The position numbers and the translations under genes were made by a program. From NCBI GenBank assembly GCA_001769125.1, contig MEOG01000122.1, forward strand, positions 1 through 32,805: a stretch of 32,805 bases of DNA, read 5' to 3'. This DNA is from Bacteroidetes bacterium GWF2_35_48. Its GTDB lineage: Bacteria; Bacteroidota; Bacteroidia; Bacteroidales; GWF2-35-48. The notes under the pieces were generated by a model. It saw nothing but the letters and a program-made list of their open reading frames with translations. It was not told the DNA's origin and ran no database searches. Of this stretch, positions 3,559 through 32,805 are shown one piece after another; position 1 is the stretch's first letter; the number at the start of each line of letters is the position of its first letter.

Positions 3559-3602
3559 TTTCGGTTCCGCTCAGTCTACGGCTGCAACCTGCAACCTGCA
3601 AC
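3559..3602 (+). repeat. GCTCAGTCTACGG element plus GCAACCT heptamers
   Basis: A short TTTCGGTTCC-GCTCAGTCTACGG block is followed directly by two GCAACCT units and a partial third. The same block-plus-heptamer arrangement recurs at 11670-11730. It lies between two minus-strand genes. Confidence 0.75.
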
Positions 3603-3616
3603 TCCCAACTCCCCCC

Positions 3617-5038
3617 TCAATCAACATTCTTTACCAACAACTTCGACTCCATCATTTCAAAAATAGCATACTTAATTCCTTCTCGACCAACGCCTGAATT
3701 TTTCACTCCTCCATAAGGCATGTGATCTACACGAAATAATGAAACTTCATTTATCATAACCCCTCCCACATCAAGGTTATTAAATGCATAGTTCATCTCA
3801 TGAATACTATCTGTGAAAACACCAGCCTGCAAGCCATATTCCGTGTTATTTACCCATTCCACAGCTGTATGAAAATTATCAAATTTTTCTAAAGTAACAA
3901 CCGGTCCGAAAACTTCCTGACAGCAAACATTCATTTCATGTTTTGTTGAAGTAAAAACTGTTGGTTCAACAAATGCACCTGATCTTTTCCCACCACAAAT
4001 AATTTTTGCGCCTCCAGCAACTGCTTCTTTTATCCACAGCTCGACACGTAAAGCATTTTCTTCATTAATCATAGCAGAGATATCCGTATCAGACTCTGTA
4101 GGATGCCCGACTTTTAAATTTCTCACAGCTTCTACAAACTTTTCTGTAAAAACATCAAATATTTTTTCATGAATATAAATACGCTGCACATGAATACAAA
4201 CCTGTCCCGAATAAGCAAAAGCACCGACTGCGCATTTTCTCACAGCAAGGTCAATATTAGCAGAATCTGAAATAATCACACCTGCATTTCCACCAAGCTC
4301 CAGAGACACTTTTTTCTTTCCTGCTTCTGCTTTCATTTTCCAGCCAACAGAAGAAGAACCTGTAAACGTGAGCATTTTAATACGTGGGTCTGTTACAAGA
4401 TGATTACCTGCTTCACGATCCATAGGCAATATGCTCAATGCTCCCTTTGGCAACTCTGTTTTATCAACAATTTTTGCAAGCTCCAACACTGATAATGGTG
4501 TTGTCCGGGCAGGTTTTAAAATAATGGGGTTACCCGCTGCTATAGCAGGAGCTATTTTATGAGCAGCAAGATTTAGCGGAAAATTAAAAGGCGAAATTCC
4601 TGCAATCAGACCCATCGGAAAATATTTCACAAGTCCTTCTTTCCCCTCTCCTACAGCCATCCAGTCAATAGCCATATATTCTTTTGGCAAACGTTTTGAC
4701 TCCTCCGCTGCGACTAAAAAAGATTGTACGCCCCGATCAATTTCACCAAGCGCATATTTTAAAGGCTTTGCAGATTCCATTGCCAGCACTTTTCCCAAAT
4801 GCTGACGATTTGCTTTTAGTTCATTTGCAATCTGCATTAGAATCTCATATCGCTTGTACAGGGGCATCTCTTTCATTGCTTTTTCTGCTGCAAGACCTTT
4901 TTCTATTGCTTCCTCAAGCTCCGCTTTTCCCGCAAGAAATGTCTGCGCAAAAATTTTATAATCATACGGACATACAACATTCAAAACAGTTCCTGTTTTT
5001 TTAAATATTCCGCCTACATAAATTTCATAAGTATCCAT
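3617..5038 (-). CDS. NAD(P)-dependent aldehyde dehydrogenase
   Basis: This ALDH-superfamily enzyme oxidises an aldehyde to its acid in the cytoplasm. Counting from the ATG at 5038 it has 473 residues, the usual length. Visible motifs are the PFNFP oxyanion Asn (N152), LKPA (K175, cofactor), the LELGG general base (E247), GQVC with the nucleophile C281, and the C-terminal EVFGPV and PYGG-K-S-G-x-GREG segments. The overall pattern resembles the lactaldehyde or non-phosphorylating glyceraldehyde-3-phosphate branch, but the substrate cannot be read from sequence. A longer frame beginning at a TTG (5065) adds nine unlikely residues, so I prefer the ATG. A -7 box sits 29 bp upstream. It is divergent from the EamA exporter and has no pathway partner next to it. 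Confidence 0.93.
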   Translation of the reverse strand: MDTYEIYVGGIFKKTGTVLNVVCPYDYKIFAQTFLAGKAELEEAIEKGLAAEKAMKEMPLYKRYEILMQIANELKANRQHLGKVLAMESAKPLKYALGEIDRGVQSFLVAAEESKRLPKEYMAIDWMAVGEGKEGLVKYFPMGLIAGISPFNFPLNLAAHKIAPAIAAGNPIILKPARTTPLSVLELAKIVDKTELPKGALSILPMDREAGNHLVTDPRIKMLTFTGSSSVGWKMKAEAGKKKVSLELGGNAGVIISDSANIDLAVRKCAVGAFAYSGQVCIHVQRIYIHEKIFDVFTEKFVEAVRNLKVGHPTESDTDISAMINEENALRVELWIKEAVAGGAKIICGGKRSGAFVEPTVFTSTKHEMNVCCQEVFGPVVTLEKFDNFHTAVEWVNNTEYGLQAGVFTDSIHEMNYAFNNLDVGGVMINEVSLFRVDHMPYGGVKNSGVGREGIKYAIFEMMESKLLVKNVD

Positions 5039-5066
5039 AATATCAAAAAATAAATTTTTAATCAAA

Positions 5067-5074
5067 CAAAATTA
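5067..5074 (-). promoter_or_regulatory. -7 box (TAATTTTG) for aldehyde dehydrogenase
   Basis: The minus strand reads TAATTTTG, matching TAnnTTTG, 29 bp before the ATG at 5038. The box lies inside the TTG-initiated frame extension, which further argues against that longer start. Confidence 0.5.
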
Positions 5075-5249
5075 AAAAATCAATCATAAGAAAAAAATAT
5101 TTTCATCAACGCACTGCTATGCATCCCAAAATGCCTGACAATGCATATCATTCGGATCTGTACAATCGTACCTCGGCTCAATTCATTAATCAAATCATAA
5201 TTCATTCTATAAAAAAGAAAAAATCATAAGCTACAACGTATCATTTTTA

Positions 5250-5257
5250 TACATTTG
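5250..5257 (+). promoter_or_regulatory. -7 box (TACATTTG) for EamA exporter
   Basis: TACATTTG matches TAnnTTTG and ends 8 bp before the ATG at 5266. Transcription would begin within a few bases of the start codon, so the mRNA may be leaderless or nearly so (inference). Confidence 0.5.
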
Positions 5258-5265
5258 CCCCCCAA

Positions 5266-6162
5266 ATGATTAACCGAAACAGCAAAATATTGCCCATGGT
5301 GTTACTGCTTGTATTATCTATGATATGGGGCACTTCATTTATTCTTACCAAGCGTGGTCTTGAATCCTATTCCAATTTTCAGTTAGCTGCTTTCAGAATG
5401 CTTATCTGTTCAGTTGTTATGCTGCCATTTCTTTTTCGCGCAGTTAAATTAATAAACAAAAAAAATATCGGACCAATACTTATAATGAATATTATTGGGA
5501 ATGGCATTCCCGCATTACTGTTTGCTACGGCACAGACCAAAGTCGAAAGTTCTTTAGCAGGAATTTTGAATTCTTTAACCCCTCTTTTTACAATGATAGT
5601 CGGAATGTTCTGGTATAAAATAAAAACACATTGGATTGGTGTTCTTGGAATCTTTATTGCTTTTGCAGGTGCTGTAGGATTATTCTCGGAAAATCTCAGT
5701 ACTTTTTTTTCAGGACAAAACTGGTATGGATTGCTCATTGCTTTAGCAACTTTTTTTTACGGAATTAACTCAAATAATGTAAAACAAAATCTAAAGGATA
5801 TGGATAGCATTTCCATTACAGCGCTAACATATTTTATTATCGGCCCCGCTTGTGGAATATACTTACTATTTTCAGATTTCTCATACGCTCTTTCTACGCC
5901 TCATTATGTGCAAAACTTTTTGAGTATTGCAGCACTTGCTGTTTTTGGCTCTGCACTTGCATCTTTAGGATGGAATGTTTTATTGAAAAGAACTACCGCC
6001 GTCGCAGCATCAAGCGTTACGTATATTATTCCGCTTTTTGCTATCGTTTGGGGAATGCTTGATAACGAAAAAATTTCTGTGATTCAACTTTCTTCTATGG
6101 GTGTAATTTTGCTTGGCGTATTTCTTGTAAACAAAGGGAAAGAAAACTCATTGAAGCAGTGA
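5266..6162 (+). CDS. EamA/DMT-family transporter
   Basis: This inner-membrane exporter of the drug/metabolite transporter superfamily has 298 residues, with about ten hydrophobic helices arranged as two EamA repeats of five. Typical features are the N-terminal SMIWGTSFILTKRG motif in helix 1 and the LNSLTPLFTMIVG motif in the first repeat. The second repeat contains the related T-Y-I-I-P-L-F-A-I-V-WG segment. Family members export amino acids, metabolites or drugs; the substrate is not predictable here. Length is standard. It is transcribed alone, divergently from the aldehyde dehydrogenase, with its own -7 box. Confidence 0.92.
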   Translation: MINRNSKILPMVLLLVLSMIWGTSFILTKRGLESYSNFQLAAFRMLICSVVMLPFLFRAVKLINKKNIGPILIMNIIGNGIPALLFATAQTKVESSLAGILNSLTPLFTMIVGMFWYKIKTHWIGVLGIFIAFAGAVGLFSENLSTFFSGQNWYGLLIALATFFYGINSNNVKQNLKDMDSISITALTYFIIGPACGIYLLFSDFSYALSTPHYVQNFLSIAALAVFGSALASLGWNVLLKRTTAVAASSVTYIIPLFAIVWGMLDNEKISVIQLSSMGVILLGVFLVNKGKENSLKQ

Positions 6163-6226
6163 TTTATGCGATTGTGAAAATAATACCGATAAAAGTATTA
6201 TAAGAAAAAAATCTGCTTTATTTTTC

Positions 6227-6234
6227 TATTTTTG
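6227..6234 (+). promoter_or_regulatory. -7 box (TATTTTTG) for T9SS repeat protein
   Basis: TATTTTTG matches TAnnTTTG, 65 bp before the ATG at 6299. No clear -33 element was seen. Confidence 0.45.
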
Positions 6235-6298
6235 TAAAAAAGAAAACTCCAGTTAGAATTTTATAAAACAGTATAATAAATTTTAATGATAAAAAAAC

Positions 6299-7867
6299 AT
6301 GAAAACATTTTTTTACTTAATAGCAATTTTATGTGTTTCTATATCTGCAACAGCTCAGCCCGAAATTCAATGGCAGAAATCTATAGGTGGAAATAATGCA
6401 GAATATGCGAATCATATTAAGGCCTTAAGTGATGGAACTTTTATTGCTGCAGGATACTCCGAGTCAAATGACGGAGATTTTTCCGGCAATCATGGCAATA
6501 GTGATTTTGCTGTTGTAAAATTAAATTCATCTGGACAAATTCTTTGGCAGAAATTATATGGTGGATCAGAGGATGATGAGTGTACTTCATTTGTTCAAAC
6601 AGCAGATGGAGGCTTTGTTTTGGCTGGTTACACTTATTCCTACGATGGCGATGTTACAGGAAATCATGGTTCCTATTCATCCGATTTCTGGATTGTGAAA
6701 ATTGATGCAAGTGGTACAATTGTATGGAAATATGCTTATGGTGGTTCTTATGAAGATGAAGCAAATGCGATTGCATTATGCAGCGATGGTGGCTTTATTG
6801 TTGCAGGAATAACATATTCTTCCAATGGAGATGTTTCCGGTAATCATGGAGATACTGATTATTGGGTAATCCGCTTAAACAGTTCGGGTCAGTTACAATG
6901 GCAAAAATGTCTGGGTGGTTCAAATCATGAAGAAGCTTATTCTGTTATACAAACTTCTGATGATGGATTTATTGTTTGTGGAAGATCCAGTTCCAATGAT
7001 GGAGATGTAACAGGAAACAACGGAGGCACTGATTGCTGGGTTGTAAAATTAAACGCATCTGGAGCAATTGAATGGCAAAAATCTTATGGAGGAACTGATA
7101 CGGAAGAAACAAATTCGATCATTCAACTTGCTGATGGAAATTATATATTTTTTGGTTATTCCTGCTCAAATGATGGAGACGTTTCCGGTCAACATAATCC
7201 CGGCTCAGGCAATGATGATTACTGGGTTGTGAAAATAAACAGCACAGGTACATTGCTATGGCAAAAATGTCTGGGTGGTTCTCTGAGTGAACAAGGACAA
7301 AAAATAATGCCTCTAAATGATGGGGGATTTTTGCTGACAGGTCTCTGTACATCAAACGACGGTGATGTTTCCGGAATTCATTCAGGCTTTTACAGCCCTG
7401 ATTATTGGGTCGTAAAAATTAATTCTACCGGAGTTCTTGCATGGCAAAAATGTTTGGGTGGTTCAGATCAGGACGAGGCACTTAGTATTGCTGTTACAAG
7501 TGATGGAGGATGCATTATCTCCGGATTTTCATATTCAACGAATGGCGATGTAACCGGTCATCACAGCCAAACAGACTGGTGGATTGTTAAACTTGCATCT
7601 TTCTCTGGAATAGAAAATATTTTAACTAAAAATCATCTGGAAATATATCCGAATCCTTGTAAAAATAAATTATATTTATCACAACCTGACTTTCCCCAAA
7701 CACCTTTATTATGCAATATATATTCTGCCAATGGAAAACTTATTGCATCTTTTATTATTAACAACTTTAATTCAGAAATTGATATTAAATCCTTTGATTC
7801 GGGACTATATCACATTTCATTAACCTCTGATAAAATTAATTTTTCAGGAAAATTTATTAAAGAATAA
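6299..7867 (+). CDS. Seven-repeat secreted protein with T9SS sorting domain
   Basis: This 522-residue secreted protein has unknown function. A signal peptide (about residues 1-20, ending ATAQ) precedes seven repeats of about 60 residues. Each starts WQK-x-x-GG-S and continues with a DGG-x-I-x-x-G strand, an SNDGDVSGNHG loop and a D-x-WVVK-L/I strand. Seven copies again suggest a beta-propeller (inference). The acidic SNDGDVSGNHG loops could bind Ca2+ (inference). The C-terminal roughly 80 residues, starting LEIYPNPCKN, are a type IX sorting domain. Codon use and AT content look like the neighbours. It converges on the lipoprotein gene 41 bp away. Confidence 0.88.
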   Translation: MKTFFYLIAILCVSISATAQPEIQWQKSIGGNNAEYANHIKALSDGTFIAAGYSESNDGDFSGNHGNSDFAVVKLNSSGQILWQKLYGGSEDDECTSFVQTADGGFVLAGYTYSYDGDVTGNHGSYSSDFWIVKIDASGTIVWKYAYGGSYEDEANAIALCSDGGFIVAGITYSSNGDVSGNHGDTDYWVIRLNSSGQLQWQKCLGGSNHEEAYSVIQTSDDGFIVCGRSSSNDGDVTGNNGGTDCWVVKLNASGAIEWQKSYGGTDTEETNSIIQLADGNYIFFGYSCSNDGDVSGQHNPGSGNDDYWVVKINSTGTLLWQKCLGGSLSEQGQKIMPLNDGGFLLTGLCTSNDGDVSGIHSGFYSPDYWVVKINSTGVLAWQKCLGGSDQDEALSIAVTSDGGCIISGFSYSTNGDVTGHHSQTDWWIVKLASFSGIENILTKNHLEIYPNPCKNKLYLSQPDFPQTPLLCNIYSANGKLIASFIINNFNSEIDIKSFDSGLYHISLTSDKINFSGKFIKE

Positions 7868-7894
7868 GTTGAAATTTGGGCTCGGAGAAAAATT

Positions 7895-7915
7895 TGATTA
7901 ATAAAAACTTAATCA
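7895..7915. terminator. Weak bidirectional hairpin between convergent genes
   Basis: TGATTAA and TTAATCA form a 7-bp AT-only stem with a 7-nt loop. It lies between two convergent genes and overlaps the stop codon of the lipoprotein gene. A terminator role is plausible but the stem is weak. Confidence 0.3.
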
Positions 7916-8406
7916 CTATATTTTATTTCATACGTTGAATCCACATTACTTTTATGAAAAGCTCTGTCCATAATATAAAACTTATATTTTATCGTTTTAT
8001 ATTTATCCGGGTCTGTAAATGTGAAATCAACTTTAATATCTCCTTTTATGGTTTTATTTTGCCCTTGCTGTTCGTCTAAATAAGGTATCCGGTAATTAGG
8101 ATTTACAATATGAATTTTTTCAAAAACAGAATCTTTTTTCTCATAAAGTTCCGTGAAAAGATTATAGCGCAGCGTGTCATAAGGCGGAAAAGTATCTCCC
8201 TGTCTCAATCCTATATCTCCATCCCCATCAACAAAATAAAACAAAAGAGTCCCAACTTTAGCATTATCGCCCAAAGCATCAATTGTATCTCTTAAATAAA
8301 ATGACTTGAATTTTATCTCAGGTATATCTGAATACTTAACAGGTTTTCTACAGGCAACCCCAAAAAAAACAAGCATAATAATAGAGATAAAAATTAATCT
8401 TTTCAT
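7909..8406 (-). CDS. Small lipoprotein with DGDGDIG motif
   Basis: This is a 165-residue hypothetical lipoprotein. The first 18 residues are hydrophobic and end in GVAC, a plausible lipobox with C19 as the lipidated cysteine. The rest is soluble and beta-rich, with a YFVDGDGDIGL segment often seen in Bacteroidota lipoproteins, where such an acidic loop may bind a cation (inference). I recognise no catalytic motif. It is monocistronic and converges on the preceding T9SS gene. A -7 box lies only 5 bp upstream of the ATG, suggesting a nearly leaderless transcript. Confidence 0.8.
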   Translation of the reverse strand: MKRLIFISIIMLVFFGVACRKPVKYSDIPEIKFKSFYLRDTIDALGDNAKVGTLLFYFVDGDGDIGLRQGDTFPPYDTLRYNLFTELYEKKDSVFEKIHIVNPNYRIPYLDEQQGQNKTIKGDIKVDFTFTDPDKYKTIKYKFYIMDRAFHKSNVDSTYEIKYSD

Positions 8407-8410
8407 GCTG

Positions 8411-8418
8411 CAAATATA
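8411..8418 (-). promoter_or_regulatory. -7 box (TATATTTG) for lipoprotein gene
   Basis: The minus strand reads TATATTTG, matching TAnnTTTG, with its last base 5 bp before the start codon. If it is used, the transcript would start at or next to the ATG. Confidence 0.4.
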
Positions 8419-8462
8419 TTCAATCTTATTTCGTATTCAAAAAGTTTTATAAAACCCTTCGT

Positions 8463-8507
8463 AATTCATCATTCGGCATTCAACATTCAGCATATAGCAT
8501 TCAACAA
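8463..8507 (+). repeat. Heptameric CATTCNN repeats, left block
   Basis: CATTC followed by two variable bases recurs every 7 bp (CATTCGG, CATTCAA, CATTCAG, CATATAG, CATTCAA). It flanks the 21-bp array on its left and matches the pattern on the right side at 8648-8738. Confidence 0.7.
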
Positions 8508-8519
8508 CAGAAAACCTGT

Positions 8520-8641
8520 TAATCATTGTTTATTTGATGTTGATCATTGTTTATTTGATGTTGATCATTGTTTATTTGATGTTGATCATTGTTTATTTGA
8601 TGTTGATCATTGTTTATTTGATGTTGATCATTGTTTATTTT
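8520..8641 (+). repeat. 21-bp direct repeat array, about six copies
   Basis: A 21-bp unit (TGATCATTGTTT through TTTGATGT) is repeated head to tail five times after a first copy with one or two changes; the last is cut after 17 bp. Full copies are identical, and each later copy contains the palindrome TGATCA, giving five GATC sites exactly 21 bp (two helical turns) apart. There are no spacers. The array lies 190 bp upstream of the SNF transporter gene. Confidence 0.9.
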
Positions 8642-8647
8642 TAACGA

Positions 8648-8738
8648 TTAATATTCAATATTCAACATTTAATATCCAACGCTCAACATTCCACATTCCG
8701 CATTCATCATTCCGCATTCGTAATTCATAATTCGTAAT
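8648..8738 (+). repeat. Degenerate heptameric TTCNNCA repeats, right block
   Basis: About 13 consecutive 7-bp units follow the consensus TTCNNCA or TTCNNAA (TTCAATA, TTCAACA, TTCCACA, TTCCGCA, TTCATCA and so on). The period stays at 7 although the bases drift. Confidence 0.65.
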
Positions 8739-8764
8739 TTTCTTTAATTTCTTGTTGTTTTTTT

Positions 8765-8772
8765 TATTTTTG
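8765..8772 (+). promoter_or_regulatory. -7 box (TATTTTTG) for SNF transporter
   Basis: TATTTTTG matches TAnnTTTG, 59 bp before the ATG at 8831, downstream of the repeat arrays. Confidence 0.45.
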
Positions 8773-8830
8773 TATGATTTAATTTCAATAAACAAATCAA
8801 ACCATTGTAAACACAAAAATATTTTTAATT

Positions 8831-10189
8831 ATGGCATTACCTCAAAGAGACGGATTCTCCGGAAGATTCGGAGTTCTCGCAGCAGCAGCAGGATCCGCAG
8901 TAGGGTTGGGAAATATCTGGAGGTTTCCCTACATTACCGGAGAAAATGGTGGCGGAGCATTTTTATTAATATATTTATTCTTTATTTTAGCAATAGGAAT
9001 TCCGGTCATGCTTTCTGAATTTGTTATTGGCAGGCGCTCTCAAAGCAATGCTCTTGGTTCTTTCAAAAAATTATCTCCCGGCTCATCATGGTGGCTGATA
9101 GGACTGATGGGCATTATCGCTGCTTTTGTAATTCTTTCATTTTATAGTACTGTATCAGGTTGGACTCTTGAATATATTTTCCAAGCTGCTGCAAGTGGCT
9201 TTGATGGGAAAAACATGGAACAGTTAAACACAGAATTTGTTGCATTTACCTCTGGCAGCTTCAGACCGGTTTTTTGGCAGATTATTTTTATGGCACTTAC
9301 TGCTGTTGTTGTTCTTGCCGGTGTTCAAAAAGGAATTGAAAAATATACTAAAATTCTTATGCCTGCATTACTAATACTTATAATTATTATTTGCATACGA
9401 AGTTTAAGCCTTCCCGGGGCTAAGGCTGGTTTAGAATTTCTTTTTGTACCCGATTTTGATAAAATAACCGGACAAAGTATATTGCTTGCACTTGGTCAAG
9501 CTGCATTTTCTCTCAGTATTGGCATGGGTGCTCTGATAACTTACGGTTCCTACATTCGCAAAGACACTCCGCTACTAGGCACTGCAGTTCAGGTTGCAAC
9601 TGTTGATACACTGATTGCTGTTTTAAGTGGTGTGATGATTTTTCCTGCCCTGTTTGCAATGGGTGAAAGCCCAGCTGGTGGTCCGGGTCTTGTTTTTGTT
9701 ACTTTACCCAAAATTTTTCAATCCATGCCGGGAGGATATTTTTTCTCTATAGCATTTTTTATTCTTCTGTCTGTTGCTGCACTTACAAGCACTATATCAG
9801 TACTTGAAGTAGTAGTGGCTTATATGAAAGAAGAACTTAAAATGTCAAGACTAAAAGCGACTTTAATTGGAGGAATTTCAATAACTGCAATTGGAGTATT
9901 GTGTACGCTTTCTTTCGGTCCGCTTAAAGATTTTACCATTTTCGGAAAAACTGTTTTTGACCTGATGAATTATATGTCGGCAAATATTTTCCTTACATTT
10001 GGTGCTTTATTTATTGTTATTTATACCGGTTGGAAACTCGGAAAATCAAACTTTATTAATGAAATTAATGAGGGAGGAAAAGTACACCCGCTTATTGCAA
10101 CAATACTCGTTTTTATTATTAAATTTATAGCCCCGATTGCTGTTGGCGCTGTTGCTATTGGTGCATTTTTCATCGAAGGCTTAATGTAA
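8831..10189 (+). CDS. SNF-family sodium-dependent amino-acid transporter
   Basis: This inner-membrane Na+ symporter belongs to the neurotransmitter:sodium symporter (SNF/NSS, LeuT-fold) family. It has 452 residues and about 11 hydrophobic helices, as in short bacterial members such as TnaT and MhsT. Helix 1 carries the diagnostic G-S-A-VGLGNIWRFPY segment followed by GENGGGAFLLIY, which forms the Na1/Na2 and substrate sites in the family. Family knowledge points to neutral or aromatic amino acids as substrates; specificity cannot be read here. It is the first of three Na+-coupled amino-acid transporters transcribed in the same direction, 57 bp before the AGCS gene. Its promoter region contains an unusual 21-bp array. 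Confidence 0.93.
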   Translation: MALPQRDGFSGRFGVLAAAAGSAVGLGNIWRFPYITGENGGGAFLLIYLFFILAIGIPVMLSEFVIGRRSQSNALGSFKKLSPGSSWWLIGLMGIIAAFVILSFYSTVSGWTLEYIFQAAASGFDGKNMEQLNTEFVAFTSGSFRPVFWQIIFMALTAVVVLAGVQKGIEKYTKILMPALLILIIIICIRSLSLPGAKAGLEFLFVPDFDKITGQSILLALGQAAFSLSIGMGALITYGSYIRKDTPLLGTAVQVATVDTLIAVLSGVMIFPALFAMGESPAGGPGLVFVTLPKIFQSMPGGYFFSIAFFILLSVAALTSTISVLEVVVAYMKEELKMSRLKATLIGGISITAIGVLCTLSFGPLKDFTIFGKTVFDLMNYMSANIFLTFGALFIVIYTGWKLGKSNFINEINEGGKVHPLIATILVFIIKFIAPIAVGAVAIGAFFIEGLM

Positions 10190-10202
10190 TTTATCAACGT
10201 TA

Positions 10203-10240
10203 AACTTGCAACCTGCAACTTAAAACTTAAAACTTAAAAC
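10203..10240 (+). repeat. ACTTGCA/ACCTGCA/ACTTAAA heptamer block
   Basis: Five consecutive 7-bp units (ACTTGCA, ACCTGCA, then ACTTAAA three times) fill most of the 57-bp gap between two transporter genes. The sequence changes from the GCAACCT family to ACTTAAA without breaking the 7-bp phase. Confidence 0.75.
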
Positions 10241-10246
10241 ACCAAA

Positions 10247-11650
10247 ATGGACCTTCTCGCAAATTTTGAAAACATAATAAAAGCATACAACGAATACGTA
10301 GGAAATTATGCTATTTTATTTTTATTAGTTCCAACTGGAATATATCTTACCATAAGATTAAAATTTATTCAGATATTTAAATTCAAACACGCATGGCAGC
10401 TTGTTGCAGGGAAATTCGATAAAAAAGACGAGCAGGGCGATGTAAGTCATTTTAAAGCACTGACAACCGCGCTATCCAGCACCGTGGGAACAGGAAATAT
10501 TGTTGGAGTTGCTTTGGCTATTTATTACGGTGGTCCTGGTGCTGTATTCTGGCTCTGGGTCTGCGGTTTCTTCGGAATGATGCTGAAATTAGTTGAATGT
10601 ACACTCGCTTTAAAATATCGAAAAATTAATGAAGATGGCACTGTTTCTGGTGGTCCAATGTATTACATGGAAATCGGCTTGAAAGAAAAACTCGGAAAAT
10701 TTGCAAAAATTCTTGCGCTTGTTTTTGCTTTTGCAGCAATGCTTTGCAGCTTCGGTACTGGAAATATGGCGCAGGCAAACTCTATGTCTGATGTTTTATT
10801 TACTAATTATGCGATACCGACTGTAGTAACAGGTGTTGTTACTGCATTAATAACAATGGTTATTATTATTGGAGGGATTAAACGTATTGGAGATGTAACA
10901 AGCAAATTAGTCCCTTTTATGGCAATTTTTTATTTCATTGGATCCATAATTGTTTTAATTGTTTTTGCAAAACAAATTCCAGGCGCTTTTAAAATGATAC
11001 TTCACGATGCATTTACAGGAAGTGCTGCTGTTGGTGGTTTTGTGGGCTCTACTTTTATGATGACAATGATTTGGGGAATTCGTCGCGCATTGTTTTCCAA
11101 TGAAGCAGGGCAAGGCTCTGCTCCAATGGCGCATGCAGCAGCTAAAACAAAATATCCCATGCGTGAAGGGCTGGTTGCTTCTCTGGAACCTTTTCTCGAT
11201 ACAATTGTTATTTGTACATTAACAGCATTAGTTGTTATCGTTACAGGAGCATGGAGCTCGAGTATCAAAGGTGCTGCAATGACAGTAAACGCTTTCGAAG
11301 CTGGTTTTGCAGAAATTGGAATTGTTGGTTATGCAAGACATTTTATTGCCATAGCTCTTGTTCTTTTTGCTTTTTCTACAATTGTAGGTTGGTCGTACTA
11401 TGGAAGCCGCGCTGCTCAATATGTTTTCGGTGATAAAGCGATCAAACCCTATTACTTTGTTTATTGCGGATTTATTATACTTGGTTCTGTGTGGGGCATT
11501 GACCTCGTCTGGCACTTTGTAGACATGGTTATTACCTTTATGACAATACCAAATCTTATTGCTTTATTCCTTCTTACTCCTGTTATCGTAAAAGAGTCCA
11601 GAGAATACTTTGCTATGATGAAAGAAGAAAAAAAATTCAACAAAATGTAA
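10247..11650 (+). CDS. AGCS-family sodium:alanine/glycine symporter
   Basis: This 467-residue inner-membrane protein of the alanine/glycine:cation symporter family has about 11 helices. Family-typical motifs are ALSSTVGTGNIVGVALAI-x-x-GGPGAVFWLW near residue 85, GGPMYYME near 140, and RRALFSNEAGQGSAPMAHAAA near 280. The family uses Na+ or H+ to import alanine, glycine or serine. It is the second of three tandem Na+-coupled amino-acid transporters; the gaps on both sides contain heptamer repeats and no promoter I can see, so read-through from the SNF gene is possible. Confidence 0.94.
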   Translation: MDLLANFENIIKAYNEYVGNYAILFLLVPTGIYLTIRLKFIQIFKFKHAWQLVAGKFDKKDEQGDVSHFKALTTALSSTVGTGNIVGVALAIYYGGPGAVFWLWVCGFFGMMLKLVECTLALKYRKINEDGTVSGGPMYYMEIGLKEKLGKFAKILALVFAFAAMLCSFGTGNMAQANSMSDVLFTNYAIPTVVTGVVTALITMVIIIGGIKRIGDVTSKLVPFMAIFYFIGSIIVLIVFAKQIPGAFKMILHDAFTGSAAVGGFVGSTFMMTMIWGIRRALFSNEAGQGSAPMAHAAAKTKYPMREGLVASLEPFLDTIVICTLTALVVIVTGAWSSSIKGAAMTVNAFEAGFAEIGIVGYARHFIAIALVLFAFSTIVGWSYYGSRAAQYVFGDKAIKPYYFVYCGFIILGSVWGIDLVWHFVDMVITFMTIPNLIALFLLTPVIVKESREYFAMMKEEKKFNKM

Positions 11651-11731
11651 CAGCAACCTGCAACCTTGACTTCGACTCCCTGCCTACCGGACAGGCAGGC
11701 GCTCAGTCTACGGCTGCAACCTGCAACATTA
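11651..11731 (+). repeat. Heptamers with an inserted palindromic element
   Basis: Two GCAACCT units are followed by TTGACTTCGACTCC, then by a 21-bp imperfect palindrome (arms CCTGCCT and AGGCAGG around a CCGG core, about 11679-11699), then GCTCAGTCTACGG and further GCAACCT units. The copy at 3559-3602 has the same flanks but lacks the palindrome. Confidence 0.8.
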
Positions 11732-11747
11732 ACAAACACCCCCAACC

Positions 11748-13217
11748 ATGACAACAATGCTTATAGTTTTCGTCCTTTATCTGCTGGCACTACTTGTTAT
11801 AACTTTTTATACTGCACGCAAGTCGCAAACAGCGTCTGATTTTGTTTTAGGCGGGAAAAAAATATCCGGATTCTCTCTTGCATTATCAGAAAGAGCAACC
11901 GGCGAATCAGCATGGCTGATACTTGGACTTACAGGTGCTGCATTTTATAAAGGGATGCACGAAATATGGACAGCCCTTGGTTGTGTTTTAGGGGTTATTT
12001 TTATATGGTTGTTTATGAGCAATCGCCTACGTCTTGAAACAGAAAAAACAGGAGCACTTACAATCAACAGCCTCCTCTCCAGAAAATTTCCGGGCTCTGA
12101 AAAACTGATTGGAACCCTCTCCTCACTTATTGTTATCTTCTTTTTACTTTTTTATATTGAAGCACAATTTTACGGTGGTGGAAAAGTTTTACACGATACA
12201 TTTGGTCTCGATCCAATCTGGGGACTTATCATCGGTTCTTTGATTGTAGTTATTTACTGCATGATTGGTGGATTTATCACTGTAGTCGCTACAGACGTTC
12301 TTCAGGCTGTTCTCATGATTATCTCACTAATTATCCTTCCTGTAATATTACTTTATATTGCGTCAAAAAGCGATATAAACATTGCTGTATCGCTTGAAAA
12401 AGCTGGAGAATCCTATAATTCTATAACTGCAGGAAAAACCGGAGTACCCGCAATTCTGCTTGCTTTAAGCGGTTTGAGCTGGGCTTTCGGATACACGGGA
12501 CAACCGCATTTACTCACAAGAATGATGGCTATTAAAAACGAGAAAGATGTTAAAATAGCAAAATGGGTAGCCATTATTTGGACATTAATCGCATACACCG
12601 GAGCAATTTTAATAGGTTGGATTGGATATGCATTTGTTACAAACGGACTCATCCCTGCTGATGCTGCTACAAGACTCGCGGATGTTGATCACAAAGGCTT
12701 TGAATTAATTTTTCCGGTGCTGGTTAATGCTTTTGTTTTTCCTGTTATAGCAGGGCTATTACTTTCTGGCTCTATCTCTGCGATGATGTCAACGGCTTCT
12801 TCTGAAATAATTCTTTGTTCCTCTGCTGTTACTGAAGATTTGTACAGAAATTATTCTAAGAAAAAACTATCAGCAAAACAGGAACTTTGGCTTAACAGAA
12901 TTATGACTCTGATTGTAGGACTTGCGGCTTTCCTAATGGCATTAACTGTAAAAGATTCTGTTTTCGGGCTTGTATCTTACGCTTGGTCGGGAATTGGCTC
13001 CTCTTTCGGTCCTGCAATTTTGCTTCTGCTTTTCTGGAAAAAAATTTCCCGCGCAGGGATTGTCGCTTCTTTGATATCAGGAACTGTTGGAACAATTATT
13101 TGGAAAAATTTCTTAGAAAAAGATACAGGCATTTCTGAACGTCTTGCAAGTTTTATTTTTGCTTTTGCAATGGCAATGCTGTTTTCACTCCTGATTCCTG
13201 AAAAGAAAAAAAACTAA
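11748..13217 (+). CDS. SSS-family Na+/solute symporter, PutP-like
   Basis: This 489-residue inner-membrane Na+ symporter is of the solute:sodium symporter family, with about 13 helices. The segment LLSGSISAMMSTASSEIILCSSAVTEDLY closely follows the helix 8-9 region of the proline permease PutP, and the first helices include the S-ERATGESAWLILGLTG segment typical of the same branch. Proline import is therefore the best guess, though other substrates occur in the family. Length is close to PutP. It is the last of three tandem Na+-coupled transporters and is followed by a repeat-filled gap of 210 bp. Confidence 0.92.
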   Translation: MTTMLIVFVLYLLALLVITFYTARKSQTASDFVLGGKKISGFSLALSERATGESAWLILGLTGAAFYKGMHEIWTALGCVLGVIFIWLFMSNRLRLETEKTGALTINSLLSRKFPGSEKLIGTLSSLIVIFFLLFYIEAQFYGGGKVLHDTFGLDPIWGLIIGSLIVVIYCMIGGFITVVATDVLQAVLMIISLIILPVILLYIASKSDINIAVSLEKAGESYNSITAGKTGVPAILLALSGLSWAFGYTGQPHLLTRMMAIKNEKDVKIAKWVAIIWTLIAYTGAILIGWIGYAFVTNGLIPADAATRLADVDHKGFELIFPVLVNAFVFPVIAGLLLSGSISAMMSTASSEIILCSSAVTEDLYRNYSKKKLSAKQELWLNRIMTLIVGLAAFLMALTVKDSVFGLVSYAWSGIGSSFGPAILLLLFWKKISRAGIVASLISGTVGTIIWKNFLEKDTGISERLASFIFAFAMAMLFSLLIPEKKKN

Positions 13218-13260
13218 TTTCGATCCTATTTCTCTTTTTTACTAATGGTAAATCTACTCT

Positions 13261-13363
13261 GCAACCTGGGTTTCCCTGCAACATGCAACCTGCAACCAAC
13301 AACCTGCAACCAACAACCTGCAACCTGCAACCTGCAACCTGATAGGTTGAGCTTGTCGAAACC
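13261..13363 (+). repeat. GCAACCT heptamer array plus GGTTGAGC...GAAACC element
   Basis: Roughly ten GCAACCT-type units (variants GCAACAT and GCAACCA-ACAACCT) form an array up to 13341. It is followed immediately by the dispersed element GGTTGAGCTTGTCGAAACC at 13345-13363. Related TTGAG...GAAAC sequence occurs in the terminator loop at 29975-29992. Confidence 0.8.
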
Positions 13364-13427
13364 AACAACTCACTCCCATTTTCATATTTTCGTAAAAAAA
13401 ATTAATTTTAGAAAAAATTTTTCATCT

Positions 13428-14012
13428 ATGAGATTACTTTTTATTTCATTGTTTACACTTTGTTTTAGCGTAACAATTGTCGTTGCTCAGACGGGCAAAA
13501 TATTTTCTGATGAGGAAAAAAAAGTGCTTAACTGGTACAATCTGGATCCGGTTAATGATAAGATATGGGGCGCAAGTACAGAAAAAGCCTACAAAGATTT
13601 TCTTTCTGAAAAGAAGCTCAAAATTGTTGTAGTGGCGGTTATTGATGGTGGTGTAGATACAAAACACGAAGACCTTGAAGGTAAAATGTGGGTAAATGAA
13701 AAAGAAATTCCCGGTAATGGAGTTGATGATGACAAAAATGGATTTATTGATGATATTCATGGATGGAATTTTCTTGGCAATTCAAAAGGAGAGAACATTG
13801 ATTATGAAACGCTGGAAGTAGCGCGTTTGTTTAAGAAATATTCAGACATTGTAAAAGAGGCAAAAGCATCGGGTACTGTTCCAGAAAATCTTCCGGATAT
13901 GGCTTTACTAAAGAAAATTGACGAAGTGTTCAGAGAAGAATTTGAAAAAGCAAAAAAGATTACGATGATGTCATGCAGTTTAATCTTGTTTATCATATTG
14001 CAGACAGTTTGA
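13428..14012 (+). CDS. S8 subtilase, N-terminal part (frameshifted)
   Basis: This is the first half of a subtilisin-family serine protease. A signal peptide (about residues 1-20, ending VVAQ) is followed by VVAVIDGGVDTKHEDL, which contains the catalytic Asp (D73), and by the subtilase-type loop NGVDDDKNGFIDDIHGWNF. The frame ends 18 codons after an A AAA AAG heptamer (13952-13958); moving to the -1 frame there continues smoothly into the next entry. I chose the ATG at 13428 because upstream in-frame codons are only translated GCAACCT repeats. A near-match to the -7 box (TATTTTCG) lies about 35 bp upstream. Alone, this fragment would lack the catalytic His and Ser. Confidence 0.85.
   Translation: MRLLFISLFTLCFSVTIVVAQTGKIFSDEEKKVLNWYNLDPVNDKIWGASTEKAYKDFLSEKKLKIVVVAVIDGGVDTKHEDLEGKMWVNEKEIPGNGVDDDKNGFIDDIHGWNFLGNSKGENIDYETLEVARLFKKYSDIVKEAKASGTVPENLPDMALLKKIDEVFREEFEKAKKITMMSCSLILFIILQTV
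13952..13958 (+). other. A AAA AAG slippery heptamer at the frameshift point
   Basis: In the zero frame the codons are GCA AAA AAG ATT, so the heptamer is in the correct X-XXY-YYZ phase. A -1 slip reads AAA AAA GAT TAC and enters the downstream protease frame. The same heptamer drives programmed -1 frameshifting in E. coli dnaX. I saw no strong downstream hairpin. A one-base loss in the A-run, by mutation or sequencing error, explains it equally well. Confidence 0.6.
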
Positions 14013-15043
14013 TTGCAAAGTTTCTTAATAAAAACGAATATACAACTGATGATTTGAAATCAATAAAAACAAGCGATGAAAGAATAGGTGCATCACAAAG
14101 ATTTCTTATTGGTACAATCAACAGCGGCTTTTCAAAGGAGTCTCATAAAGAACTTACATTAGATATGACAGAAAAATATTTATACCATCTTAACTTTGAT
14201 TTTAATCCTCGTGAGATTATTGGCGATGATCCTGAAACAAATGCAGATTCTTTGTATGGAAATAATGATGTAGCAGGTCCGCGGGCAGATCACGGAACTT
14301 TTGTAGCCGGAATTATTGCAGCGGTTCGTAATAACAACATAGGTTGTGATGGCGTTGCAGAAAATGCGAAGATTATGGCGCTTCGTGTTGTACCTAATGG
14401 AGACGAGAGAGACAAGGATGTAGCAAATGCAATTCGTTACGCAGTGGACAATGGTGCGAAAATTATTAATTTAAGCTTCGGAAAAGATTTTTCTCCGCAA
14501 AAAGAATTAGTAGATCGAGCTTTAAAATATGCAGGGCAGAAAAATGTTCTGGTAGTTCATGCCGCAGGGAATGAAGGCGACAATAATGATGTTGAAATCC
14601 GATATCCTACCAACCGGGATTCGCAGAATAAACCGCTGCTCCAAAGCTGGCTTGACGTAGGAGCTTCATCAATGAAAAAAGGGAAAAATTTTCCTGGTTT
14701 TTTTTCAAATTATGGCAAGATAAATGTTGATTTGTTTGCGCCCGGTGTTGATGTATTTTCTTTAACCCCCGGAAGTAAATATAGCGTGAAAAGTGGTACC
14801 AGCTTCGCGGCTCCTGTTGTTTCGGGAGTTGCTGCTCTTATTATGGGTGCTTATCCTGATTTATCTGCTGATGCAGTTCGCGACATTCTCCTTAAATCTG
14901 TTCAGAAATACAATAAAAAAGTTTTCCTTCCGAGTATAAAAGATAAAAAAAGCAAAAAAGTGAAATTTGAAAACCTATCCGTAACAGGAGGTGTGGTAAA
15001 TGCGTGGAATGCCCTGAAAATAGCTGCATCTTACAAAAAATAA
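13973..15043 (+). CDS. S8 subtilase, C-terminal part (frameshifted)
   Basis: This is the second half of the protease. It carries the catalytic His in DHGTFVAGIIAA (H107 of this frame), the oxyanion-hole Asn in VVHAAGNEGDN, and the catalytic Ser in SGTSFAAPVVSGVAAL (S277). The ATG at 13973 is only the first Met after the shift; the homologous frame is open further upstream to the heptamer. Joined by a single -1 shift, both parts give one 538-residue exported protease with a complete Asp-His-Ser triad. The Asp-His gap is unusually long (about 200 residues). No T9SS tail is present, so the periplasm is the likely location. Protease output would suit the amino-acid transporters upstream (inference). 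Confidence 0.88.
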   Translation: MQFNLVYHIADSLIAKFLNKNEYTTDDLKSIKTSDERIGASQRFLIGTINSGFSKESHKELTLDMTEKYLYHLNFDFNPREIIGDDPETNADSLYGNNDVAGPRADHGTFVAGIIAAVRNNNIGCDGVAENAKIMALRVVPNGDERDKDVANAIRYAVDNGAKIINLSFGKDFSPQKELVDRALKYAGQKNVLVVHAAGNEGDNNDVEIRYPTNRDSQNKPLLQSWLDVGASSMKKGKNFPGFFSNYGKINVDLFAPGVDVFSLTPGSKYSVKSGTSFAAPVVSGVAALIMGAYPDLSADAVRDILLKSVQKYNKKVFLPSIKDKKSKKVKFENLSVTGGVVNAWNALKIAASYKK

Positions 15044-15361
15044 TTCTTTGGAGGACTCTTTTCTCATTAAAATTTATAAAAAAAAACTGCTGTTAACCTG
15101 CAACATCTCTCAACCTGCAACAACTTGTCAACCTTAGTGAATCTTAGTGTCCTTAGTGGCTTAGTGGTAAAATATAACATGCAACATGCAACAACTTGTC
15201 AACCTTAGTGAATCTTAGTGTCCTTAGTGGCTTAGTGGTAAAATATAACATGCAACATGCAACATGCAACAACTTGTCAACCTTAGTGAACCTTAGTGAA
15301 CCTTAGTGTCCTTAGTGGCTTAGTGGTAAATATAACATTCAACCTGCAACCTGCAACCCCC
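15044..15361. other. 318-bp gap between convergent genes, filled by repeats
   Basis: No gene is supported. The gap separates the convergent protease and sortilin-like genes and consists almost wholly of the 71-bp satellite and GCAACCT/GCAACAT heptamers described in the next entry. I saw no clear terminator hairpin. Confidence 0.75.
15095..15357 (+). repeat. Nested satellite: 71-bp unit with CTTAGTG and GCAACAT subrepeats
   Basis: Three copies of a unit beginning CAACTTGTCAACCTTAGTG start at 15121, 15192 and 15270. Inside each, CTTAGTG recurs at spacings of 8-10 bp, and each copy is joined to the next by GCAACAT heptamers. The second-to-third spacing is 78 instead of 71 because one extra heptamer is present, and the third copy has an extra 10-bp CCTTAGTGAA. 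GCAACCT heptamers bound the array on both sides. Confidence 0.9.
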
Positions 15362-30881: not shown

Positions 30882-32805
30882 ATGAAATTTTTTTCTTCTA
30901 TTATTTTGCTGTTAATTCCATTTTTCCTGTTTTCGCAGGGAGACACAAACCTTGTGAATTCGCTTATCAGTAAAAGCGATGCGCTTTCTTCCGAAAATTT
31001 TCAGGGAGCAGAAAAAATTGCATTTCAGGCGCTTGAAGAAGCATTGAAAACTACCGATTATATATGTCTTGCAAAAGCTAATAACAACATTAGTGAACTA
31101 TATAAGCAAAAAGGAAATTTTTCTAAATCCGCACATTATTTATATTTAAGCGGAGAAAATTATCTGAAAGGAGGGAACGACCTTAAAGGTTTTCATTCTA
31201 TGAATTATGCCGGATATTTTTATACGGTTACCGGAAATTTTGATAAGGCGAGTGAAATTTTATTGTTAGTACAAAAAAAAGCAGAGCAGAAACAATTCAA
31301 AAAAGCGCTTCCCATGAATTATCTGGCATGGGGTTTTTTATACCGCGATATGAAAAAACAGGAAAAAGCCATGGAGTATTTTATGAAAGCGCATAAAATA
31401 GTAAAAGATTCTTTGGGGTATTATACAGTTAAATTTACCTCCTTAAATGAAATCGGCAACATATATAATGGTCAGAAAAACTATAAATATGCGCTGAAAT
31501 ATCAGTTGCAATCATTGAAAATTAAAGAAGAAATAAGAGATTCGGTTTCAATAGGATATTCATTTAATGACATTGGAATTTCTTATATGTTACTTGGTAA
31601 GCTTGACAGCGCAAAATATTATTACGGGAAAACGTTACAGCTTGCAATTGAAACAAAAAATAAACATATAGAATCTTCGGCGAATATTAATTTTGCGGAA
31701 TTATGCAAGCAGGAAAAAAAATATAAAGAGGGCATTGAATATGCAAATAAAGGGTATGTTTTAGCAAAAGAAATTCAGGATGCAGGAATGATTCAAGGTT
31801 CAATACAGCTTCTTGGATATTTCTATGAAAAAACAGGAGATAAAGATCAATCTATTTCCTTTCTCCGGCAATACATTGATTTTACAGATTCTTTGCACAG
31901 GCTTGAGTCTGTCAAACAAACAGCAGAGCTACAGGAGCGATATGAATCTGAAAAAAAAGAAAAAGAAATTGAGGTTTTAACCCTCGACAAACAATATAAA
32001 GAAAAAGAAATTCGACAGCAGCAAATTATTAAATACACTATATCCGGAATAGCAATTCTTCTTGTATTCTTTTTCTTTTTTGCTTTCCGCGCTTATAAGA
32101 TTAAGAAAAAATCTGCAGCTATTCTTGCAGAACAAAAGGAAGAAATCATAATGAAAAATGAAGAGTTGCAGCAACAAAAAGAAGAAATTCTGGGACAAAG
32201 AGACCAGTTGCAGGTGCAGTCAGAGATAATTTTCGCAAAGAGTAAGGAAGTGGAAGACAGTATTCGTTATGCGCTGAAAATACAGGAAGCAGTTTTGCCA
32301 TCGCAATCATTACTGACAGATGTTTTTTCCGATTCATTTATTTTATACCTTCCTAAGGATATTGTCAGTGGCGATTTTTATTATTTTTTCAGAAAAGAAA
32401 ACCTTCTGTACATAGCTGCTGCTGATTGTACCGGTCATGGCGTACCCGGTGGTTTTATGAGCATGCTCGGTATTACTTTTCTGAATGAAATAATCGCGCA
32501 TAATCCTAATTTTTCTGCCGCTGAAATTTTAGATCGTCTGCGCGAGGAAATAATACGTTCACTGAAGCAGACCACGCAAATGAGCTGCCTTGTTTCTGTT
32601 TTTTCTAATATTCGTGATGGAATGGATATTTCATTTTGCATTATAAATACCGATACCCTCGAAATGCAATTTGCTGGGGCTAATAATCCCACATGGGTTG
32701 TACCATCGCCCCATGGGGCGATGCCACAATCCCATGGGGCGATGCCACAATCCCATGGGGCGATGCCACAATCCCATGGGGCGATGCCACAATCCCATGG
32801 GGCGA
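30882..32805 (+). CDS. TPR / coiled-coil / SpoIIE-type serine phosphatase (partial)
   Basis: The gene is open to the window end, with 641 residues visible. After a signal peptide (about 1-19, ending LFSQ) there are several TPR-like helical repeats (about 25-350), a coiled coil, one transmembrane helix (about 385-405, IAILLVFFFFFAF) and a second coiled coil. A SpoIIE/PP2C phosphatase domain follows from about 480. The motifs IRYALKIQEAVLPS, PKDIVSGDFYYF and AAADCTGHGVPGGFMSMLG show the conserved metal-binding Asp residues. The plan is a periplasmic TPR sensor controlling a cytoplasmic phosphatase, common in Bacteroidota partner-switching systems. Just after FAGANNPTWVV the protein enters PQSHGAM heptapeptide repeats encoded by a 21-bp tandem repeat, and the window stops there. 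The missing end should contain the last core strands. Confidence 0.88.
   Translation, partial: MKFFSSIILLLIPFFLFSQGDTNLVNSLISKSDALSSENFQGAEKIAFQALEEALKTTDYICLAKANNNISELYKQKGNFSKSAHYLYLSGENYLKGGNDLKGFHSMNYAGYFYTVTGNFDKASEILLLVQKKAEQKQFKKALPMNYLAWGFLYRDMKKQEKAMEYFMKAHKIVKDSLGYYTVKFTSLNEIGNIYNGQKNYKYALKYQLQSLKIKEEIRDSVSIGYSFNDIGISYMLLGKLDSAKYYYGKTLQLAIETKNKHIESSANINFAELCKQEKKYKEGIEYANKGYVLAKEIQDAGMIQGSIQLLGYFYEKTGDKDQSISFLRQYIDFTDSLHRLESVKQTAELQERYESEKKEKEIEVLTLDKQYKEKEIRQQQIIKYTISGIAILLVFFFFFAFRAYKIKKKSAAILAEQKEEIIMKNEELQQQKEEILGQRDQLQVQSEIIFAKSKEVEDSIRYALKIQEAVLPSQSLLTDVFSDSFILYLPKDIVSGDFYYFFRKENLLYIAAADCTGHGVPGGFMSMLGITFLNEIIAHNPNFSAAEILDRLREEIIRSLKQTTQMSCLVSVFSNIRDGMDISFCIINTDTLEMQFAGANNPTWVVPSPHGAMPQSHGAMPQSHGAMPQSHGAMPQSHGA
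32703..32805 (+). repeat. 21-bp in-frame tandem repeat with palindromic first unit
   Basis: Five units of 21 bp are present: a first variant (32703-32723), three identical copies and a 19-bp partial cut by the window end. Each encodes seven residues, PQSHGAM (first copy PSPHGAM). The first contains the perfect 20-bp palindrome CATCGCCCCATGGGGCGATG; later copies keep only CCCATGGG. Confidence 0.92.

Follow-up and report, generated by a model that had tools for sequence, protein, structure and literature searches.

Seven-base intergenic arrays of Bacteroidetes bacterium GWF2_35_48: many words, one period and a fixed order of inverted arms

Introduction

The window analysed here, a stretch of 32,805 bases from Bacteroidetes bacterium GWF2_35_48 (contig MEOG01000122.1), carries intergenic arrays of 7-bp units, among them GCAACCT and GCAACAT, and raises the question of why different words should repeat with one and the same step and, in this window, in one and the same orientation. 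An earlier note, made from the sequence alone, had described these heptamers as always lying on the plus strand whatever the direction of the flanking genes, and had ascribed the shared period to a common mechanism, such as slippage, a polymerase or a binding protein, rather than to descent of one element. Our analysis makes it somewhat probable that hairpin (foldback) repeats are dispersed through the intergenic DNA and that the arrays are their arms, present in pairs or singly and extended by seven bases at a time.

Heptamer tandem repeats are already in print for cyanobacteria, Xanthomonas, Beggiatoaceae and some Bacteroidetes (PMC4679880, PMC4692102); the published systems are compared here as they are described in excerpts of the papers cited. 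Among long simple sequence repeats, seven is a favoured unit length that occurs sporadically among species, and slippage set by polymerase contact has already been proposed as its cause (Mrazek et al. 2007, cited in PMC4679880 and PMC4692102).

Results

A seven-base period shared by many words

The genome is a 5.98-Mb draft of 142 contigs. Periodicity was counted in a sample made up of the window and 792,000 bases from nine other contigs (824,805 bases, about 14% of the genome); these nine were picked as long and as known array carriers, so that the densities are not genome averages. Gene calls followed a crude longest open reading frame (ORF) scheme, by which some gaps, for example 13218-13427 of the window, were scored as coding, and the intergenic DNA of the sample comes to 87,690 bases. 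Degenerate segments of period 7 number 78 in it, where shuffling gives a mean of 3.2, and there are 10 segments at period 6, 12 at period 8 and 1 at period 9; each of the periods from 4 to 13 other than 7 gave between 1 and 12, and multiples of seven were also raised (42 segments at period 14, 20 at period 21). Exact runs of at least 12 matches numbered 42 at lag 7, 5 at lag 6, 7 at lag 8 and 1 at lag 9, compared with 0-2 per lag in one shuffle. The 78 segments occupy 55 of the 378 gaps that are at least 30 bases long. Tandem 7-bp units therefore exceed chance length in the sample, unit length 7 is in excess over neighbouring lengths, and the heptamer repeats of the window are real and above chance. 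Period 16 is likewise in excess in the intergenic DNA of the sample (21 segments, 1.2 after shuffling).

Several words share this period: AACNTGC, GACTGNN with AGTCGGC, GAATTAN, TTAATCC, CTTCNNN and ATTCNNN were all found in the sample, and the AAC, GACT and AATTC words contain no G tract of three or more. The congener G001 (254,943 bases sampled) gave 18 segments at period 7, 4 at period 8 and none at periods 6 and 9, and its words, judged by eye, are mostly different ones such as ATTACYG, AAATCGT and CTTGGGA. The 80,000 bases of G025 held 12 segments at period 7, yet 10 at period 10, and period-7 segments were few or missing elsewhere, with two apiece in about 55 kb of G103 and G132, one in the 42 kb of G021 and none in the 59 kb of G028; the excess is therefore not general to every genome. 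Pooling 18 named stretches (241,909 bases), 14 of them from Bacteroidota by title, gave 10 segments at period 7, 6 at period 14 and at most 2 at any other, the period-7 segments coming from only 3 of the 18. The claim that different words keep a common 7-bp period thus stands in the genome itself, in its congener and in the pooled stretches. Words may also drift without loss of phase, as in an array of G132 (L105:7596-7687) that passes from TGAGTAT through CAAGTAT, CAAGTAA and CCTGTAA to CCTGCAA. The seven-base step is best regarded as a property of the lineage that is not tied to one word.

Inverted arms in a fixed order

Where the AAC word recurs inverted at short distance, the pair reads GTTGCAG...CTGCAAC. 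A genome-wide search for GTTGCANGTT-N15..45-AACNTGCAAC, which was not restricted to intergenic DNA, returned 32 matches at 26 loci (merged by eye), and the opposite order returned none. The same polarity is seen in the sample, in which AAC arrays that are neighbours within a gap are arranged minus-plus in 14 cases, plus-minus in 0, plus-plus in 4 and minus-minus in 1. Over six words, taken by a three- or four-unit definition, array pairs less than 250 bp apart were minus-plus in 20 cases (AAC 10, GACT 6, CTTC 4), plus-minus in none, and plus-plus and minus-minus in 6 each. An inverted partner lies on the 5' side of 31 and the 3' side of 2 of the 49 AAC arrays analysed, and on the 5' side of 9 and the 3' side of 1 of 20 GACT arrays; these counts take both arms of a pair, so that the loci are fewer, and their cut-off was set from base-shuffled flanks. 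Other families of the order keep the arrangement, both for the AAC word (L102, L107, G174:C38) and for the GACT word (L174, L183). A general rule by which the G-rich arm stands on the left was rejected, as it fails in G001 (0 pairs for, 2 against); the corresponding counts were 13 for and 5 against among 21 pairs of the sample (3 ties, some pairs sharing one gap), 6 and 0 in selected stretches and 2 and 0 in others. Arm polarity seems to go by word.

Some of these loci are predicted to fold into long hairpins, by RNA parameters and with no shuffled control: C5:6140-6280 (141 nt) at -55.8 kcal/mol, its heptamer arms lying inside TGATGTTACGCAAATTG-like ends, C97:38458-38553 at -38.8 and C41:110280-110340 at -33.8. 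Together with L187 and L188, the C5 locus (in L032) resembles a miniature inverted-repeat transposable element (MITE), a foldback repeat in which TGATGTTACGCAAATTG-like inverted ends enclose GACT/CTTC heptamer arms. By eye, such ends occur at several more GACT or CTTC gaps of the genome and are absent at the GACT arrays read in other genomes (L174-L186).

A second kind of hairpin, the TGAGC...GTCGAA core, is dispersed through the genome with a constant tip, TGAGCNNAGTCGAA, and one copy lies in the window (Table 1). Its stems vary from copy to copy with complementarity kept (GGTGGC/GCCACC, GGTGTC/GACACC, GCTGAC/GTCAGC). There are 169 sites in the genome and none of the backward control; the core is present in 99 of 247 genomes of the order, many with one or two sites, its backward control giving single sites in some tens of the 247. 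Visual inspection shows a core enclosed at 6 of the 26 inverted AAC loci, and among the 62 AAC arrays with at least two units 18 have a core no more than 120 bases away, compared with 6.4% of random intergenic positions.

Orientation relative to genes and replication

By our main definition, AAC[ACT]TG[CT]AAC, the sample contains 70 AAC arrays, 21 of which fell in sequence scored as coding and were omitted from the orientation counts. The 49 intergenic ones are divided between the strands, 29 plus and 20 minus. Constant orientation, which the earlier note had described, is a local feature of the window: it holds in the five gaps for which it was described and fails as a rule. Strand has no significant relation to gene direction, GC skew or neighbouring arrays. 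In co-directional gaps 17 arrays lie on the gene strand and 11 on the opposite one (p = 0.34), neighbouring arrays in different gaps are on the same strand 9 times and on different strands 12 times, and local GC skew does not differ with array strand (p = 0.91; 49 arrays). A three-unit definition with any spacer (45 arrays) gave 27 plus and 18 minus, 17 on the gene strand and 10 opposite (p = 0.25), 8 like and 15 unlike neighbours and, for GC skew, p = 0.35. A replication-strand bias, which the earlier note had suggested looking for, and a gene-strand bias were accordingly rejected; that note had tied its proposal to a non-random orientation and to an excess of period 7 over other periods, and while the orientation proved random, the excess is present. 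Over the whole genome, AAC four times at 7-base spacing gave 150 forward and 193 reverse matches; the backward control, CAA at 7-base spacing, gave 63 and 80, and is itself matched by GCAAC arrays.

Strand is related to position within the gap, plus arrays lying in the right half in 16 cases and the left in 13, minus arrays in the right half in 4 and the left in 16 (p = 0.019; p = 0.006 under the three-unit definition). By gap type, co-directional gaps contain 28 arrays, divergent ones 15 and convergent ones 6, where 33, 9 and 7 are expected (p = 0.09). A role as terminators was rejected on account of the 15 of 49 arrays in divergent gaps; the hairpins inspected also seemed, by eye and without a count, to have no T-run after the arm. 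Nor do arrays in co-directional gaps keep one orientation towards a start codon lying a few bases downstream.

Distribution across genomes and turnover

CAACNTG arrays have 125 sites in the genome and 1 in G001, and occur in 14 of 247 genomes and 11 of 173 genera, the present one included; their backward control occurs in 2 of the 247 and not at all in the genome itself. GACTGNN arrays are more abundant (437 sites, and 33 in G001) and found in 22 of 119 genomes and 21 of 118 genera. They are less specific, because the backward control also matches often (43 sites in the genome, 21 in G001, present in 13 of 119 genomes) and in G023 outnumbers the pattern itself. The stretches L099-L117 were selected for carrying CAACNTG and are uninformative on frequency.

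Turnover is visible in the genus of G103 and G202. An orthologous stretch between aligned blocks contains heptamer arrays in G202, where it is 1,545 bases long, and lacks them in G103, where it measures 184 bases; in a further gap of this stretch it is G103 alone that carries an AAC array. The arrays therefore come and go. The 1,545-base stretch also holds a candidate PIN-like ORF, read from its translation. The window itself matches the congener G001 at 9 places on eight contigs with 65-84% identity, and no other strain of its own species appeared among the relatives.

In a viral collection of 2.9 million contigs, an exact 23-base pattern was found in 2 stretches (L194:1-400 and L195:8420-8580), both with long GTTGCAG/CTGCAAC heptamer walks; that of L195 directly precedes an ATG, in DNA that looks G+C-rich. 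Carriage of the arrays by phages was rejected as rare.

Features of the window

The plus-strand copies from which the question arose are present as the earlier note had placed them, spread over five gaps: GCAACCT at 3584, 3591, 10208, 11653, 11660, 11716, 13261, 13285, 13320, 13327, 13334 and 15346, and GCAACAT at 11723, 13278, 15100, 15181, 15252 and 15259. The genes on either side run -/- at 3584, +/+ at 10208, 11653 and 13261, and +/- around 15095-15358. Elsewhere in the window, GCAACCT lies on the minus strand at 9591 and 21858, and GCAACAT on the plus strand at 15956, 22177, 24685, 30390 and 31456. It was also correctly observed that other heptamers, of ATTC type and AACTTAA, keep the 7-bp period, and that AACCTGC gives way to AACTTAA without losing phase (Table 1).

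Table 1. Arrays, tandem repeats and hairpin cores in the window
Feature	Position	Strand	Context
AACCTGC array changing in phase to AACTCCC	3582..3613	+	gap with a minus-strand gene on each side; the stop codon of the aldehyde dehydrogenase gene (Pfam Aldedh) is 3 bases away
ATTCNNN degenerate 7-bp array	8458..8500	+	before the 21-bp tandem repeat
21-bp (3 x 7) tandem repeat, 5.9 copies, 99% alike	8517..8640	+	flanked by ATTCNNN arrays
ATTCNNN degenerate 7-bp arrays	8650..8739	+	after the 21-bp tandem repeat
AACNTGC units changing in phase to AACTTAA units	10203..10240	+	fill most of the 57-bp gap separating two symporter genes; AACTTAA part at 10217-10240
AACCTGC units	11653..11665	+	start 2 bases past the stop of the Na_Ala_symp gene
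TGAGC...GTCGAA-family hairpin core	11671..11705	-	between two AAC arrays of the same orientation
AACCTGC/AACATTA units	11716..11730	+	upstream of SSF symporter gene
AACCTGC/AACATGC/AACCAAC array	13261..13341	+	gap preceding likely ATG at 13428
TTGAGCTTGTCGAAA hairpin core	13344..13363	+	directly 3' of the 13261..13341 array, which it matches weakly in inverted orientation (score 7.5)
AACCTGC/AACATGC arrays alternating with CTTAGTG blocks, composite units of about 71-78 bp	15095..15358	+	convergent gap

Among the genes beside the arrays are those for an aldehyde dehydrogenase and a subtilase, three consecutive sodium symporter genes and one for a long PKD/CUB protein that bears a Por secretion tail; several arrays are only tens of bases away from a start or stop codon. 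The CTTAGTG blocks of the convergent gap are 8-10 bp long (15130-15326), and a comparable CTTAGTG/AAC composite stands on another contig (C69:145616-145733, in L024). Two overlapping ORFs occupy 13245-15043; the first, which likely starts at 13428, matches no Pfam family, and the Peptidase_S8 domain was found in the second alone. A frameshift may split the subtilase gene. At 32710-32805, a perfect 21-bp tandem repeat of 4.6 copies, cut by the window end, seems by eye to be an in-frame 7-residue repeat in a coding region.

Discussion

We propose the following account, which we regard as somewhat probable, of how the arrays arose. The word families, of which AACNTGC, GACTGNN/AGTCGGC and CTTCNNN are the clearest, would be families of related copies of hairpin repeats, whose arms lengthen or shorten by seven bases, most likely through slipped-strand replication between the direct repeats of 3-5 bp that stand seven bases apart in each word (AAC....AAC, GACT...GACT). 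Some copies would retain both arms, and others, such as the same-direction arrays of the window, would show a single one. The step would then be common to all words and the polarity would belong to each. The fixed order of the AAC arms and the recurrence of the word across genera are what one would look for in hairpin repeats that are related to one another, or under a process specific to the sequence, and are not expected from independent slippage. On this point the earlier note's preference for a common mechanism over descent was not borne out in the form given, the inverted AAC pairs keeping one order throughout and their word recurring in other genomes of the order; it seems that both apply, with separate word families, each probably a dispersed repeat, that have a 7-bp mode of growth in common.

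Several observations weigh against this account. The nine arrays of the window have no facing heptamer arm, and two of them have weak inverted matches: that of the 10196-10240 array (score 8.0) is A+T-rich and lies within the upstream gene, and that of the 13261-13341 array is the hairpin core on its 3' side. In the sample, 17 of the 49 AAC arrays have no inverted partner on either side, and partners are rare for two other words, with 1 among 19 AATTC arrays and 3 among 9 ATCC arrays. Similarity between arms is no higher within a locus than across loci (AAC p = 0.39; GACT p = 0.99), a result on which we also rejected correction of one arm by its partner. Of 21 neighbourhoods of array and core, 3 have another geometry, and the AAC word is nearly missing from the congener. 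For the arrays, no transposase, target-site duplication, strain-level length change or movement has been demonstrated.

A less probable alternative is that the arrays are ordinary long simple sequence repeats, in which polymerase slippage expands whatever local word has a few letters recurring seven bases on. The step of seven would come from the contact length of the polymerase, no element would be involved and orientation would be accidental, as the earlier note and the 2007 proposal have it. Such an origin would sit well with one period for many words, with their drift in phase, with an orientation that is random to genes and skew, and with the lack of an inverted partner at most AATTC and ATCC arrays; when the word is ignored, similar arrays sharing a gap in the sample are direct about as often as inverted (23 and 21), which also counts against the hairpin account. 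Against plain slippage stand the order of the inverted AAC arrays, 26 loci against none and the same in other families, and the recurrence of CAACNTG in 11 unrelated genera with a backward control in so few genomes; the recurrence of GACTGNN makes a weaker case, given how often its control matches.

A further reading, which we regard as unlikely, is that Bacteroidales have a dedicated process by which sequence-specific hairpin seeds (AACCTGCAAC, GACTGNNGACT and others) are extended in one polarity, by seven bases at a time, into hairpin repeats. If true, the heptamer words would reflect the 7-nt step of a polymerase or nuclease in place of passive slippage.

We give still less weight to the view that the arrays are binding sites of a protein or RNA regulator beside genes, as proposed for the TAACTGA repeats of Beggiatoaceae. 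Several window arrays do lie tens of bases from a start or stop codon, and base variation is uneven across the seven positions (27 arrays; 0 of 2000 simulations were as uneven, under a null that ignores the copying of variants by slippage). Against this, strand is unrelated to genes, gap types do not depart significantly from expectation, the kinds of flanking genes are varied and no Rfam family reached its gathering threshold in the window; we found no sign that the arrays regulate the flanking genes.

Least probable of all is that the arrays are repetitive extragenic palindrome (REP)-type repeats moved by Y1 (HUH) transposases, the hairpins serving as substrates of a Bacteroidetes TnpA_REP like subclass 2.6 (PMC6006769): they are indeed intergenic, dispersed, palindromic and patchy, and the genome has 10 Y1_Tnp matches, 6 of them above 80 bits, but no AAC or GACT heptamer array was seen in the 300-base flanks of the Y1 gene at 8 of the 10 loci (L079 and L087 left out; one has an N-masked stretch), and the AAC matches of the whole 2.4-3.4 kb loci, two distinct ones of two units each, like the one AATTC array there, all stand several hundred bases away from the gene. 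Spread by Y1 transposases was rejected for this reason. Several of the Y1_Tnp genes (L079-L088) resemble REPtrons in having their own type of repeated palindrome in the flanks (atcggtgcaaccgat, tctcggatttgtaatccgaga and others).

Among known systems, tandem heptamers of several words were reportedly described in cyanobacteria by Mazel et al. in 1990 as short tandemly repeated repetitive (STRR) sequences, which we liken to the present arrays by description. A further carrier of intergenic heptamers, A. sublithincola, we take to be an Aequorivita. Calothrix has three tandem heptanucleotides (PMC4692102). Compared with the heptanucleotide repeats of Mrazek et al., the arrays described here agree in the favoured unit of seven and differ in being degenerate, in having several words per genome and in the fixed order of inverted arrays. 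TAACTGA direct repeats occur in Beggiatoaceae, Cyanobacteria and five Bacteroidetes (MacGregor 2015), other intergenic heptamers in Gramella, A. sublithincola and Elizabethkingia, and close relatives of the TAACTGA carriers have shorter intergenic regions without obvious repeats (PMC4679880). That system likewise consists of intergenic tandem heptamers, with one exact word, found mostly right upstream of start codons, and one indirect repeat in the main genome (PMC4679880), whereas the present genome has many words, no fixed relation to genes and many inverted pairs. The GGGNATC heptamers of Xanthomonas and Nostoc, quadruplex-forming words with a G tract (Rehm et al. 2015, PMC4692102), are also abundant and intergenic, vary in length between related organisms and are mentioned as forming inverted-repeat stem-loops; they prefer a gene strand and avoid divergent gaps (PMC4692102), unlike the arrays of this genome, whose AAC, GACT and AATTC words have no such tract and which do not avoid divergent gaps. 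The nearest element class is that of the REP-type hairpins of Bacteroidetes (PMC6006769). REP sequences, bacterial interspersed mosaic elements (BIMEs) and TnpA_REP substrates are, as here, dispersed intergenic hairpins, Bacteroidetes included (PMC6006769, PMC3733652), but the arms in this genome are tandem heptamers of variable number and do not adjoin the Y1 genes examined. For a lexicon of many words in one genome together with a fixed order of inverted arms, we found no precedent in the literature searched, which took in few subscription journals and the cited papers in part.

Why seven should be so frequent among bacterial tandem repeats with units of more than 4 bases is, in the literature found, a matter of one proposal. 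The many unrelated 7-bp words of this genome, a congener with mostly other words and the same period, and the strict order of the inverted arms together supply facts that any mechanism must meet: the step is independent of the word, and the polarity is fixed within it. Closely related array-bearing Bacteroidales are good material for measuring the step size directly.

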